Source: Clostridiaceae bacterium DTU059 (GTDB taxonomy: Bacteria; Bacillota; Clostridia; DSM-8532). Taken from it: a stretch of 32,969 nucleotides of DNA. The position numbers and the translations under genes are program-made. The stretch is from positions 1 to 32,969 of the forward strand of contig LFSK01000030.1 of the NCBI GenBank assembly GCA_001512555.1. Reading direction: 5' to 3'. The notes below the pieces were generated by a model that searched no databases, was not told the origin of the DNA, and saw only the letters and a program-made list of their open reading frames with translations. Below are positions 1 to 31,270 of the stretch, piece by piece. Numbering within the stretch: the stretch's first letter is position 1; each line of letters starts with the position of its first letter.

Positions 1-419
1 CCCCTGCTCAAAGTGAAGGGATTCCTGGCAAGTATACGGTCAAGGCCAAGAAGTCCGGAAATCTTCCTGATTCTTTCATCAATCAACTCAGGCTGGCATT
101 TGATATTGATCAGTCCAAACCTTATCTCATCGTAGACTGTGTTGCAAAAGATCTGATGATCCGGGTTCTGAAACAAATAACCGATATGGCGGGCAAGCTC
201 ACTGGTTCTGGTGGTTGCCGTGTCGAGTCCGTTGATGATGACGCTGCCGGAAGATGGCCTTAAAAGGCCGTTTAACTGTTTTAACAACGTAGTCTTGCCC
301 GCACCGTTCTGCCCGATCAGGGCCACAAACTCACCTCGTCCGATCTCAAGATTTATATGATCCAGAATCAGGGGGGCTTTTTTATTGTAGCGATAGGTCA
401 GATTCCTAATACTGATCAT
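1..419 (-). CDS. ECF transporter ATP-binding protein, second ATPase (3' part outside the window)
   Basis: This is the N-terminal 139 codons of an ABC ATPase read leftward; the rest lies beyond position 1. I translated it by hand: it starts MISIRNLTYRYNKKAP and contains a Walker A (GQNGAGKTT), a Q-loop (YLFQNPDHQ) and the beginning of a signature (LSRG) at the window edge. The YLFQNPDHQIF and DEIRFGL stretches are typical of the EcfA ATPases of energy-coupling-factor vitamin and amino-acid importers. The ATG at 419-417 lies 11 bases inside the end of the preceding ATPase gene, whose stop codon is at 408-406, so the two are probably translationally coupled. It would pair with that upstream ATPase as an EcfA/EcfA' heterodimer on the cytoplasmic face and power uptake through the S component encoded first in the operon. 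The T component (EcfT) is not visible and would be expected further left. Confidence 0.88.
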   Translation of the reverse strand, partial: MISIRNLTYRYNKKAPLILDHINLEIGRGEFVALIGQNGAGKTTLLKQLNGLLRPSSGSVIINGLDTATTRTSELARHIGYLFQNPDHQIFCNTVYDEIRFGLINIKCQPELIDERIRKISGLLGLDRILARNPFTLSR

Positions 420-1263
420 AAGCTCCCTCCATTATTTTTCTTATAACCGACTCAGCCTCATCCACATCCACCGGGAATTCGCCAGAATAGAGTGAGGCAT
501 TCTTAAGAAGCTTTGTCAGAGTAACAACTCTGGGACAATTGATACCAAGCTCCAAGAGCTTGTCGTGGTGCTCCAGCACCTGCCTCACAGGTCCATCCAT
601 AATGATGCGTCCCTTTTCCATAACCATGAGCCGGCTGCAGAACTCGGAGAGCAGCATAACCTTTTGCTCCACAATGAGGATGGTCATGTCATATTCCTGA
701 TTCAAGCGCTTAAGAGTCTTGAAGACCTGTCGGCTTCCCTGGGGATCCAGTTCAGAGGTTGGTTCATCCAGTACCAGTATTTTTGGCCTTAAGGCAATGG
801 CGGCGGCAATAGTCACCCGTTGCTTTTGTCCGCCGGAAAGGGCAGCGGTGCTTTCGTGCCTTAAATGTTCAATCCCAGCCATCTTAAGAGCCTCTGCCAT
901 CCGGGTTTCGATCTCATCTGCAGGTATGTTGAAGTTTTCCAGGCCAAAGGCTATCTCATCTTCAACAACCGTCGAAACCATCTGGGACTCCGGATCCTGA
1001 AACACGCTTCCCACATGATGGGATATCTCTCCACATGAGCTTTCCACTGTATCTCTGCCGCAGACAAGAACCTCACCATAGAAATCGCCCTTGTGGTGGT
1101 GCGGGATCACGCCGTTAATCAGGTTGACAAGGGTGGACTTGCCAGCACCGGAGGGACCAATGATGCCAACAAATTCACCCCTGTCAATATGTGCATGAAT
1201 GCTCGAAACCGCCAGTTCTTCACTATTCTCGTATGAAAAAGAGACATTATTGAACAGGATCAT
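406..1263 (-). CDS. ECF transporter ATP-binding protein, first ATPase
   Basis: An ABC ATPase of about 285 residues. It has Walker A (GPSGAGKST), Q-loop (SVFQDPESQM), signature (LSGGQKQR) and Walker B followed by the catalytic Glu (ILVLDEPTSELD), all in the expected order. FQDPESQ and DEIAFGLEN are characteristic of the EcfA group rather than of drug exporters. An upstream ATG would give 17 more residues, but the ATG at 1263 is preceded by a GGAAGGAAGG ribosome binding site at suitable spacing, and the product then begins MILFNNVSFSYE as the family does, so I use it. The start overlaps the end of the trpP-like gene by 17 bp and the end overlaps the next ATPase by 14 bp, so the three genes form one tightly packed operon. 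Predicted role: ATP hydrolysis for import of the substrate bound by the S component, probably tryptophan (inferred from the neighbour). Confidence 0.9.
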   Translation of the reverse strand: MILFNNVSFSYENSEELAVSSIHAHIDRGEFVGIIGPSGAGKSTLVNLINGVIPHHHKGDFYGEVLVCGRDTVESSCGEISHHVGSVFQDPESQMVSTVVEDEIAFGLENFNIPADEIETRMAEALKMAGIEHLRHESTAALSGGQKQRVTIAAAIALRPKILVLDEPTSELDPQGSRQVFKTLKRLNQEYDMTILIVEQKVMLLSEFCSRLMVMEKGRIIMDGPVRQVLEHHDKLLELGINCPRVVTLTKLLKNASLYSGEFPVDVDEAESVIRKIMEGAYDQY

Positions 1264-1837
1264 TGGTAGCCTTCCTTCCAAGTGCCAGTTTGATTGGTAC
1301 ATACAATACCTCAACTATAATGGCATTGATGGCTGCGGTTCCCAGAATAATGCCCAGAAATACTGCCACGGGCATGGTGGATACCTCCGCTCCGGCGTAG
1401 AAAAGGAGATAGAGTACGCCCAGGAAGGAAAAACCGCTGCTCAGAGTTGCTATAAAGGTGGCGAAAACAGGTTTTAACGGTATCTTACCTATATCAAGCT
1501 TTAGTGGAATGAGCATGAGCAGATACATTACAACTGCTCCTATGGGCTCACTGATCAGGTTCAGATAGGGTGTACCGGGGAAGAACTGGGATACAATGCC
1601 TGCCAGAATACCGATGATAAGGGCCTCAGACAGGCGGGGTCTGATCAGCAGGATGGCCAGGCAATACATTGCAATGATAAAATTGGGTTTCATGCCCGCT
1701 GTAAAAAAGGCTCCAACAAACAGTTTAAGGACCGCGCCCGCTGCCAGCAGCACACCCACCAGGAGGATATCGGTTACCGACATGCCTTTTCTGGACTTGC
1801 TCTGAATAGTTCTTTTTTGCATGGTTTCTTGTGACAT
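1247..1837 (-). CDS. trpP: TrpP-like ECF substrate-binding (S) membrane protein, probable tryptophan transporter
   Basis: A hydrophobic protein of 196 residues with about five or six membrane segments after a short basic N-terminus. The segment GAVLKLFVGAFFTAGMKPNF and the following stretch with PGTPYLN closely recall TrpP/YhaG of Bacillus subtilis as I remember it (GAVLH...FFFGMKPD...FPGGQLPN), including the MKP motif. TrpP-type proteins are tryptophan uptake proteins of S-component fold. A longer frame starts 20 codons upstream, but the ATG at 1837 has a strong GAGGAGG site and is preferred. Two ECF ATPase genes follow in the same operon. This fits an S component with a dedicated or group-shared energizing module. 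The leader upstream carries a promoter, a TRAP-like triplet run and an intrinsic terminator, which independently point to tryptophan control. Substrate is inferred from similarity and context, not proven. Confidence 0.8.
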   Translation of the reverse strand: MSQETMQKRTIQSKSRKGMSVTDILLVGVLLAAGAVLKLFVGAFFTAGMKPNFIIAMYCLAILLIRPRLSEALIIGILAGIVSQFFPGTPYLNLISEPIGAVVMYLLMLIPLKLDIGKIPLKPVFATFIATLSSGFSFLGVLYLLFYAGAEVSTMPVAVFLGIILGTAAINAIIVEVLYVPIKLALGRKATNDPVQ

Positions 1838-1899
1838 AAAAAAACCTCCTCGAAAAATGATATCTCGCAGAGGTGTGATGAAAAGAATATGTACCAATG

Positions 1900-1925
1900 A
1901 AAAAGGTCAGGAGACACCTGACCTC
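1900..1925 (-). terminator. Intrinsic terminator/attenuator in the trpP leader
   Basis: Reading leftward, an 8-bp perfect stem (AGGTCAGG / CCTGACCT) with a TGTCT loop runs directly into five U residues. It sits between the promoter and the trpP-like start codon, about 60 nt before the start, so it would stop most transcripts unless prevented. That position is typical of an attenuator. The 5' arm is preceded by TATTCT, which can pair with AGAATA upstream within the triplet region; this is a weak candidate antiterminator. Confidence 0.75.
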
Positions 1926-1953
1926 AGAATACAACACAAAATAAGCCATTTGC

Positions 1954-2000
1954 CTCTTCTCATCTCTTCTGGATATTCTATTCTTGCCTCATCTCATCTC
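1954..2000 (-). promoter_or_regulatory. TRAP-like (G/U)AG triplet-repeat RNA site in the trpP leader
   Basis: In the leftward transcript, NAG-type triplets recur every 5 nt. Triplets begin, in plus coordinates of their last base, at 2000 (GAG), 1995 (GAG), 1990 (GAG), 1985 (AAG), 1980 (UAG), 1975 (UAU), then with a one-base shortening 1971 (CAG), 1966 (GAG), 1961 (GAG) and 1956 (GAG). The next register position, 1951, is AAA. Seven of ten are GAG or UAG. The trp RNA-binding attenuation protein TRAP (MtrB) binds about eleven (G/U)AG triplets separated by 2-3 nt, and controls trp genes including trpP in Bacillus. Here the run starts about 5 nt after the predicted transcription start and precedes an intrinsic terminator. 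Identification rests on pattern and context only; mtrB is not in this window. Confidence 0.6.
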
Positions 2001-2011
2001 TGCTTTCCAAT

Positions 2012-2041
2012 AATATACCCCGAATGAGCCTGCTCTGTCAA
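2012..2041 (-). promoter_or_regulatory. Sigma-A promoter of the trpP-ECF operon
   Basis: On the minus strand there is a perfect -35 TTGACA (2041-2036) and a -10 TATATT (2017-2012) separated by 18 bp. Transcription would start near 2005, so the triplet-repeat site lies at the very 5' end of the RNA. Confidence 0.75.
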
Positions 2042-28160: not shown

Positions 28161-28426
28161 AGATTGTTAAAGCGATGATCGGTACGAGTAGGATTCTTGA
28201 ATCCTTTCAGAGAGTGGGGGAAGGTGAAAGCCCCGCAGGAAGAGGGATCCGAATATCAACCGTGAGCAGCAGCCTGAAAGGCTCAGCCAGCCGAATAAGG
28301 TGAGCCGGATTGAGACCGTTACCCTCAAAACAAGTGGTCCTGTAATCCTTTGCGGGGTTATGGGGCAATTTGGGTGGTACCACGGAAAGCAGAGCCTTTC
28401 GTCCCATGGGACGATGGGCTTTTTTA
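28161..28426 (+). promoter_or_regulatory. T-box riboswitch (tRNA-Ile responsive) controlling ileS
   Basis: The leader holds the hallmarks of a T-box: AGAGAGTGGGGG...AAAGCCCC in stem I, a specifier region GAATATCAAC with the Ile codon ATC at 28255-28257, and the T-box proper GGGTGGTACCACGG at 28372-28385, whose TGGT can pair with the ACCA end of uncharged tRNA-Ile. A terminator follows at 28393-28425: CGTCC-CATG-GGACG with outer AGCC/GGCT pairs and a run of six T. Uncharged tRNA-Ile should stabilise the antiterminator and allow ileS transcription. The ribosome binding site TTGGAGG and the ileS ATG come about 80 nt later. Confidence 0.95.
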
Positions 28427-28507: not shown

Positions 28508-31270
28508 ATGGCAGTTGATTATGGAAAGACACTGAACCTGCCAAAAACCGATTTCCCTATGAGGGGCGGGCTTCCTGAGAAGGAGCCGCGGATTTTGGAG
28601 GAGTGGCAGAATAAGGATATTTATCATAAAAGACTTGAGCGGAACCGGAACTCCGGTAAGAAGTTTGTGCTTCATGATGGCCCGCCCTACGCCAATGGCG
28701 GAATCCATATGGGAACCGCATTAAATAAGGTGTTAAAAGATATAATCATGCGTTATTACGACATGAAGGGCTATTATACACCCTATATCCCCGGGTGGGA
28801 TACCCATGGACTTCCTACTGAGCAAAAGGCCATTAAGGAAAGGGGACTGAACCGTCACGAGGTGGGGCCTGTGGTTTTCAGAAAGGCCTGCCAGGAGATT
28901 GCCTGGAAGTATCTGAACATTCAAAGGGATGCCTTCAAGCGCCTTGGTGTAATAGCAGACTGGGACAATCCCTACATCAGTTATCTGCCCGAGTATGAAG
29001 CCAGACAGATCGGTGTATTCGGGCATATGGCCAAGCTGGGCTGCATTTATAAAGGCATGCGACCTGTGTACTGGTGCCCCTCCTGTGAAACTGCCCTTGC
29101 CGAAGCCGAGATAGAATACGCAGAGGATACCACCAATTCCATCTATGTCAAATTCCCCATGACGGATGACAAGGGCAAGCTCAAGGGTATTGTGGACACC
29201 CTGGAGAATCTGTATGTGGTTATCTGGACCACCACCACCTGGACACTGCCGGGCAATATGGCTATAAGCCTTAACCCTGACTTCATTTATGTGGTCATGG
29301 AAGCCAACGGCGAGCGCTATATCGTTGCCAGGGATCTGGTTGAGAAGGTGGCGGCTGCTGCAGATATAAGTGAATATAAGATTCTGGGTGAAATCATGGG
29401 ATCAGAGTTGGAGTATGCGGTTTGCAGGCATCCGTTCTTAGAAAGGGATTCCCTGGTCATTGTAGGAGACCATGTCACCCTGGAAGCTGGTACAGGATGC
29501 GTACACACCGCACCCGGCCATGGTGCAGAGGACTTTGAGGTATGTAAGAATTATCCTGAGATAGAAACCCTGGTGCCTGTTGATGATAAGGGTCATCTTA
29601 CCCAGGAAGCGGGACCCTTTGCAGGTATGTTTTACAAAAAGTCAAACAAGGCCATCCTGGAGCTTCTGAAAGAGAAAAATCTGCTTCTGGCTGAAGAGGT
29701 CATTACACACCAGTATCCCCATTGCTGGCGCTGCAAGAATCCCATCATTTTCAGGGCTACCGAGCAGTGGTTTATCTCCATCAACAAGTTCAAGGATGCA
29801 GCCTTAAAAGCAATCAAGGATGTCCGCTGGATTCCGGGATGGGGTGAGGAGCGTATTTCCAAGATGGTGGAAGACAGAGGGGACTGGTGTATTTCCCGCC
29901 AGCGTATCTGGGGAGTTCCCATTCCCATATTCTATTGTGAGGACTGCGGCAGGGAGATAATTGATGATGAGACCATTAAAGCCATCCAGGAACTGTTTGC
30001 CAGAGAGGGCTCCAATGCCTGGTTCATCTATGAGGCTTCTGAGATTCTGCCTGAAGGTTATGCCTGCCAGTGCGGAGGCCGCAACTTCAGAAAGGAAAAG
30101 GATATCATGGACGTCTGGTTTGATTCCGGATCATCCCATGCTGCTGTGGCCGAGCCCAATCCTGAACTGGGCTGGCCTGTGGATATGTATCTTGAGGGAA
30201 GCGATCAGCACAGGGGCTGGTTCCAGTCCTCCCTTCTGACTGCAGTTGCCACAAAGGGCCGCGCCCCATACAGACAGGTGCTGACCCACGGGTATGTGGT
30301 GGACGGGCAGGGCAAGAAAATGAGCAAGTCCCTGGGTAATGTTATCGACCCCGTGGATGTCTGCAAGCAATACGGTGCTGATATTTTGAGGCTTTGGGTG
30401 TCTTCCAGCGATTATAAAACTGATATACGCATCTCCAATGAAGGCTTTAAGCAGTTATCGGAGAGCTACCGGAAGATCAGGAACACCGCCAGGTTCCTTC
30501 TTGGAAACATCTATGATTTCAATCCCGGTGAGCATAGCGTTGCCTATGCCGAGATGGAGGAACTGGATCGCTGGGCGCTTATGAAGCTCAACAGGCTGGT
30601 GGAGAAGATTGAGAAGGCCTACTCCGACTATGATTTCCATGTAATGCTCCATGCCATCCATAATTTCTGTGTGGTGGATATGTCCAATTTCTATCTGGAT
30701 GTGACCAAGGACAGGATGTATGCCTCAGAGGCCGACAGCAAACAGCGCCGTTCAGGGCAGACTGCCATGTACATCATTCTGGATACCCTGACAAGGCTTT
30801 TGGCTCCAGTTCTGGCTTTCACCAGCGAGGAGATATGGAAATACATTCCCCATACCGAAAAAGACAATCCCGAGAGCATCATGCTCAATGACTGGCCGGA
30901 GGTCAAGCCCGAGTATGAGGATCATGCTCTTGCTGAGAAGTGGGAGAGGATTCTGGAGGTTCGCGAGACCGTCCTGAAAGCGCTGGAGAATGCAAGGAAT
31001 GAAAAACTTATTGGACAGTCCCTGCAGGCGAAGGTGGTTCTGAAGGCGGGCAAGGCTCTCTACGATTTCCTTGAAGGTGTTAAGGATCTGCTGCCCACTG
31101 TCTTCATCACCTCCCAGGCGGAATTGGAGCTCATGGATAAGAATGGCCTGGAAGTTGTTGTCAAGCCAGCGGACGGTCAGAAATGCGAGCGCTGCTGGAT
31201 GTACTCAGATTCTGTTGGGCATAGCCATGAGCATCCCACTCTTTGCGAGCGCTGCAGCAAAACGGTTTAA
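28508..31270 (+). CDS. ileS: Isoleucyl-tRNA synthetase
   Basis: A 920-residue class Ia aminoacyl-tRNA synthetase of full bacterial length. The HIGH motif appears as HMGT (residues 67-70, within DGPPYANGGIHMG), and KMSKS is at 604-608. The editing domain carries TTTTWTLPGN, and the tail ends with a zinc-binding pair (CERCWMYSD...CERC), as in bacterial IleRS of the Zn-containing type. It charges tRNA-Ile with isoleucine in the cytoplasm. The ATG follows TTGGAGG at 7-8 nt. Expression is set by a consensus promoter and an Ile T-box. The gene is monocistronic and ends at a strong terminator 25 bp after the stop. Confidence 0.98.
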   Translation: MAVDYGKTLNLPKTDFPMRGGLPEKEPRILEEWQNKDIYHKRLERNRNSGKKFVLHDGPPYANGGIHMGTALNKVLKDIIMRYYDMKGYYTPYIPGWDTHGLPTEQKAIKERGLNRHEVGPVVFRKACQEIAWKYLNIQRDAFKRLGVIADWDNPYISYLPEYEARQIGVFGHMAKLGCIYKGMRPVYWCPSCETALAEAEIEYAEDTTNSIYVKFPMTDDKGKLKGIVDTLENLYVVIWTTTTWTLPGNMAISLNPDFIYVVMEANGERYIVARDLVEKVAAAADISEYKILGEIMGSELEYAVCRHPFLERDSLVIVGDHVTLEAGTGCVHTAPGHGAEDFEVCKNYPEIETLVPVDDKGHLTQEAGPFAGMFYKKSNKAILELLKEKNLLLAEEVITHQYPHCWRCKNPIIFRATEQWFISINKFKDAALKAIKDVRWIPGWGEERISKMVEDRGDWCISRQRIWGVPIPIFYCEDCGREIIDDETIKAIQELFAREGSNAWFIYEASEILPEGYACQCGGRNFRKEKDIMDVWFDSGSSHAAVAEPNPELGWPVDMYLEGSDQHRGWFQSSLLTAVATKGRAPYRQVLTHGYVVDGQGKKMSKSLGNVIDPVDVCKQYGADILRLWVSSSDYKTDIRISNEGFKQLSESYRKIRNTARFLLGNIYDFNPGEHSVAYAEMEELDRWALMKLNRLVEKIEKAYSDYDFHVMLHAIHNFCVVDMSNFYLDVTKDRMYASEADSKQRRSGQTAMYIILDTLTRLLAPVLAFTSEEIWKYIPHTEKDNPESIMLNDWPEVKPEYEDHALAEKWERILEVRETVLKALENARNEKLIGQSLQAKVVLKAGKALYDFLEGVKDLLPTVFITSQAELELMDKNGLEVVVKPADGQKCERCWMYSDSVGHSHEHPTLCERCSKTV

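Follow-up and report, generated by a model that had tools for sequence, protein, structure and literature searches.

The trpP leader of Clostridiaceae bacterium DTU059 is very probably a TRAP-controlled RNA in which translation is switched by competition between a 5′ element, an anti-Shine–Dalgarno (anti-SD) element and the trpP Shine–Dalgarno (SD) sequence, with an intrinsic terminator as a possible second layer of control. This leader lies on the minus strand of the 32,969-nucleotide stretch of DNA that we analysed (contig LFSK01000030.1, positions 1 to 32,969; hereafter the window). When tryptophan is plentiful, the TRAP site would probably switch off translation of the tryptophan-uptake operon and perhaps its transcription as well. 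TRAP itself is a textbook example of an RNA-binding regulator and is known mainly from work on Bacillus; its action on a trpP leader whose first triplet captures an anti-SD element would be a variation on its known use.

Architecture of the trpP leader and operon

The features of the leader and of the operon are as follows, in order of transcription.

2012–2041, minus strand: predicted sigma-70-type promoter, near consensus (TTGACA at 2041–2036, 18-nt spacer, TATATT at 2017–2012; 11 of 12 consensus positions, assigned by consensus match only)
1954–2005, minus strand: predicted TRAP binding site of eleven NAG-like triplets
1998–2003, minus strand: 5′ element GCAGAG, overlapping the first triplet and complementary to the anti-SD
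1903–1925, minus strand: intrinsic terminator hairpin (9-bp stem with 5 G–C pairs), followed by a T run
1867–1874, minus strand: anti-SD element ACCUCUGC
1844–1849, minus strand: SD sequence GGAGGU of trpP
1247–1837, minus strand: trpP, the ECF S component for tryptophan, 196 aa, ATG at 1837 (PF17099, E 1.1e-11, above the cut-off)
406–1263, minus strand: ECF ATPase (A) (PF00005, E 5.2e-30)
3–419, minus strand: ECF ATPase (A′), truncated by the contig end (PF00005, E 2.7e-19)

The first-pass annotation had described NAG-like triplets in a 5-nt register together with a predicted start of transcription, a terminator and a TrpP-like gene, and the features described are all present. The interval that it gave, 1900–2041, does contain features of the leader, but important sequence extends lower, to the anti-SD (1874–1867) and the SD (1849–1844) ahead of the ATG. 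Read along the minus strand, the triplets are AAG GAG GAG GAG AAG TAG TAT CAG GAG GAG GAG, then gc AAA, and the series begins about at the predicted start of transcription. All spacers are 2 nt with the single exception of one of 1 nt, and 7 of the 11 triplets are (G/U)AG, the other four being AAG, AAG, TAT and CAG; the leader thus has the form usual for TRAP targets, namely about 7–11 (G/U)AG triplets spaced by 2–3 nt.

Assignment of the operon to tryptophan uptake by an ECF transporter also holds. Specifically, the S, A and A′ components are encoded in the window, which ends inside A′, and the T component is taken from the loci of relatives only, where CbiQ comes next after A′ (L101 and L103). 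The trpP operon of Thermoclostridium caenicola extends through ecfT, iorA and iorB (L101:5002-7405), and the last two of these, which encode indolepyruvate ferredoxin oxidoreductase subunits, would fit a role in tryptophan salvage.

With respect to other leader elements, an Rfam search that included RF00230 returned no match to a T-box or any other family on the trpP leader, and T-box control of this leader was rejected for want of an RF00230 match. Elsewhere in the window, an ordinary T-box leader (28166–28409, plus strand; Rfam 119.4 bits) precedes an isoleucyl-tRNA synthetase gene (28508–31270).

Alternative pairing of the anti-SD element

The anti-SD lies about 130 nt downstream of the 5′ element and has two mutually exclusive partners. 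Its CUCUGC is complementary to the GCAGAG of the first-triplet element, and the overlapping ACCUCU is complementary to the SD GGAGGU. Both pairings are conserved in relatives, which is the configuration expected of an SD-sequestration switch and leads us to predict one here. Absent from the first-pass annotation, this arrangement points to translational control.

Across 14 trpP leaders, CCTCT of the anti-SD is invariant, and the 5′ element and anti-SD occur in the combinations GCAGAG–CUCUGC, GUAGAG–CUCUAC, GUAGAG–CUCUGC (with a wobble pair) and ACAGAG–CUCUGU. This covariation comprises two pairs altered on both sides (7 cells) and stems from few evolutionary events; its score was reached by 0 of 500 shuffles and was lost on sliding the helix. 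For the helix between SD and anti-SD taken alone, pairing is kept in the 14 leaders and covariation is not significant.

Folding predictions describe the same two states. When the RNA ends before the SD, the helix between 5′ element and anti-SD forms with a probability of 0.63–1.00 in 14 of 14 leaders, and when the triplets are masked the SD hairpin is predicted at 0.77–1.00. For the window leader extended by 35 nt of coding sequence, the mean probability that the SD is unpaired falls from 0.44 in the free RNA to 0.03 with the triplets masked. At full length the free window leader favors the SD hairpin (0.61) over the 5′ helix (0.38), and the SD hairpin is likewise favored in most Ruminiclostridium leaders, so that in these leaders the switch may need co-transcriptional folding.

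In the mechanism that we propose, TRAP loaded with tryptophan would wrap the eleven triplets as they emerge from the polymerase. Its presence there would hide GCAGAG and leave the anti-SD ACCUCU to pair with the trpP SD, blocking translation, and the protein, bound in the wake of the polymerase, may in addition promote termination at the hairpin. If tryptophan is scarce, the anti-SD would instead be captured by GCAGAG together with the triplets that follow it, leaving the SD open and the uptake operon expressed.

A more distant TRAP-type trpP leader (L210) carries CUCAUCUC between its terminator and SD, fully complementary to its GAGAUGAG triplets, and is possibly the same switch made of different letters.

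Terminator and attenuation

The first-pass annotation had proposed that tryptophan-loaded TRAP binds the leader and favors termination. A leader of the TRAP type is borne out by the presence of mtrB and by the retained register, but disruption of an antiterminator is not. The window terminator is predicted at 1.00 both with and without masking of the triplets, and folding of full, masked and cut-short leaders yielded no antiterminator that would exclude it. The only candidate seen previously, an AGAATA/TATTCT helix, had been flagged as the weak point of the proposal, and rightly so: it adjoins the terminator without overlap. Since the terminator is predicted to form in either state, a classical antiterminator is not supported.

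We have considered whether the leader works by classical attenuation only, TRAP allowing the terminator to form by preventing an antiterminator, with the SD hairpin incidental. Such a scheme would account for the strong terminator downstream of the triplet site and for two relatives in which masking partly affects the terminator (0.42 to 1.00 and 0.65 to 1.00), and in cut-short nascent RNA the GAGAU of the first triplets can pair with GUCUC of the terminator loop. Against it stand the state-independent terminator of the window leader and several Ruminiclostridium leaders that show no obvious terminator by eye, all of which keep the anti-SD and SD, and we judge it improbable. The GAGAU:GUCUC pairing was entertained as a possible kinetic antiterminator and set aside; L170, the one further lineage among the 14 leaders, does not share the loop sequence.

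TRAP-induced termination without an attenuator has been reported in B. subtilis (PMC3913778), where the E60K substitution in TRAP reduced termination 3-fold (PMC3913778). The TRAP of the source genome, aligned with that of B. subtilis, naturally carries K at position 60. Given these points and a terminator predicted to form in both states, we rank translational control of the window leader first and termination second.

TRAP in the source genome and in Clostridia

A search of the rest of the genome found one mtrB, on contig C186 (1651-1848; locus entry L023:1639-1878), with PF02081 at E 4.1e-36 and a score above the NCBIfam MtrB equivalog cut-off; all solved structures matched by its product are TRAP. 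Its neighbors, judged from their translations rather than by a family-library search, presumably correspond to dnaE and pfkA. An anti-TRAP gene was also sought in the source genome and none was found. Within the class, mtrB is present in 88 of 391 sampled genomes, so that TRAP in Clostridia is not itself unusual and the earlier description of such a site as unusual there was too strong.

Each RNA triplet is contacted in TRAP by E36, K37, K56 and R58 (PMC4027176). The TRAPs of the window organism's family keep E36, K56 and R58, and 9 of 9 that were aligned have I instead of the B. subtilis K at position 37 and L instead of F at position 32; a same-order outgroup (G404) retains K37 and F32. Together with K at position 60, these changes (K37I, F32L) fall at or near the RNA-contact surface. 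Since the RNA sites are still of the NAG type, binding of triplets has presumably been kept despite K37I.

Distinctiveness and conservation of the triplet site

Sites were scored as chains of 11 triplets, and the best chain in the window leader, which starts at AAG (2005), scores 30.7. Among 2000 dinucleotide shuffles the mean was 16.0 and the maximum 25.2, with none reaching 30.7. In 354 kb of the source genome, both strands included, chains scoring at least 25 occur only at the window leader and at the start of trpE (29.2), and no other chain exceeds 24.6; the trpE contig was deliberately included, and the ranking of these two sites as best therefore applies to the scanned part only. A simpler scan for six KAGNN repeats had an uninformative reversed control, which the real sites match too. 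GAG reads alike backwards and the control is thus not independent, and we therefore relied on the chain score with shuffles and genome background.

The triplets are kept in the 14 trpP leaders, which come from Thermoclostridium-like genomes, Ruminiclostridium and L170. The source organism is itself a Thermoclostridium-like member of the Clostridia, and T. caenicola DSM 19027 (L108), a relative in its genus, has a leader of this kind. Promoter, triplets, terminator and a CCUCUGC before the SD are all retained in five genomes of the genus, the source among them, and in a single genome from the neighboring genus. The Ruminiclostridium species and L170 retain the triplets and the anti-SD/SD pair. 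Periodicity is likewise preserved: a step of exactly 5 nt accounts for 91 of the 100 between triplets in ten of these leaders, in a chain search that itself favors this step.

To relate the site to TRAP, the upstream regions of 80 trpP relatives were scored before any search for mtrB, and 50 of their genomes were then searched. A chain of at least 19.5 on trpP was found in 18 of 18 genomes with mtrB against 2 of 32 without it (Fisher p about 1e-11), for a threshold picked after the data had been seen and genomes that are not independent. Raising the threshold to 22 gives 16 of 18 against 2 of 32, and a threshold of 24 gives 15 of 18 against 0 of 32. It is very unlikely, then, that the triplets belong to another regulator or are a chance purine-rich stretch: GA-rich repeats do occur in coding regions, as the next-best chain illustrates, and a contact residue of the source-genome TRAP is changed, but the shuffles, the conserved register, the co-occurrence with mtrB, the second-best site at trpE and a leader free of Rfam families all speak for TRAP.

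The division between leaders with and without mtrB recurs. Four members of the window organism's family have no mtrB, and in these trpP is preceded by a T-box instead; in G235 and several Synergistaceae a T-box is followed by triplets around the trpP start codon, together with mtrB. The association has a limit in two mtrB-bearing genomes whose distant TrpP-like genes (L211, L212) have T-box-like leaders free of triplets. Among the loci labelled Synergistaceae or Synergistes, L112, L113, L116, L118 and L172 show mtrB and a trpP on which NAG-like triplets close to the start codon come after a T-box, in bins that are possibly contaminated.

TRAP-like sites at trpE and trpB2

In the source genome, trpE is preceded by a T-box (Rfam 122.8 bits) with UGG at the likely specifier position, as read from the sequence, and then by a TRAP-like site that runs into the trpE start (L022:1309-1695, contig C165). 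The same order is seen in T. caenicola (G045) and in G073. The trpE mRNA in these three genomes would thus carry two tryptophan sensors in series, one reading tRNA charging and the other free tryptophan. TRAP-like sites also occur at the start of trpB2, which encodes a TrpB-like PLP enzyme, in G125, G287, G214 and G358 (L081, L074, L075 and L070); a homologue search found no close trpB2 homologue in the source genome. A literature search, in which subscription papers on trp operon evolution were outside the scope, found no paper on TRAP in Clostridia or on a T-box and TRAP on one leader.

Comparison with known systems and implications

In B. subtilis trpP (yhaG), a gene of the same kind with TRAP as its regulator, the TRAP target lies over the SD of trpP. 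The predicted site in the window leader is placed differently, preceding the anti-SD by about 130 nt and with a terminator between. T-box leaders of tryptophan genes serve the same genes and physiology and sit on trpP in family members without mtrB, but their signal is uncharged tRNA and not free tryptophan; the window leader has none, and on trpE of the same genome one stands before the TRAP-like site.

The B. subtilis trpEDCFBA leader is similar in that eleven NAG-type triplets close to its 5′ end are followed by a terminator and then by an SD that can be sequestered, with transcriptional and translational layers; action of TRAP on both transcription and translation of that operon is cited in PMC3913778. 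The window leader differs in preceding an ECF uptake operon rather than genes for tryptophan synthesis, in having no overlapping antiterminator that we could find, and in a first triplet that itself would compete for the anti-SD. Counted against a TRAP switch are the K37I and F32L changes in TRAP, the four triplets of eleven that depart from (G/U)AG, and the preference for the SD hairpin at full length.

A broader reading, which we advance tentatively and at rather less than even confidence, joins these observations. In these Clostridia, and in some Synergistaceae, TRAP would sense tryptophan for both uptake and trpE translation. On trpP its first triplet would double as captor of the anti-SD; on trpE it would sit behind a Trp T-box, tRNA charging and free tryptophan being read in series on one mRNA as a cis counterpart of the trans-acting anti-TRAP of Bacillus; and the triplets would be read through an altered surface (K37I, F32L).

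Taken together, co-occurrence with mtrB and covariation allow TRAP to be traced onto ECF tryptophan-uptake operons of Clostridia, in a setting where close genera use a T-box, and the Synergistaceae-labelled genomes with mtrB would, bin contamination permitting, place TRAP outside Bacillota. The system also allows one to ask how TRAP functions when K37 is replaced and position 60 is naturally K, the residue whose introduction weakens termination in B. subtilis (PMC3913778). Finally, leaders with a T-box only, with TRAP-type triplets, and with a T-box plus a TRAP-like site form a natural series in which to follow how TRAP and tRNA sensing replace one another or combine, and a trpE that bears both elements, in a genome where the search for an anti-TRAP gene found none, is relevant to that series.
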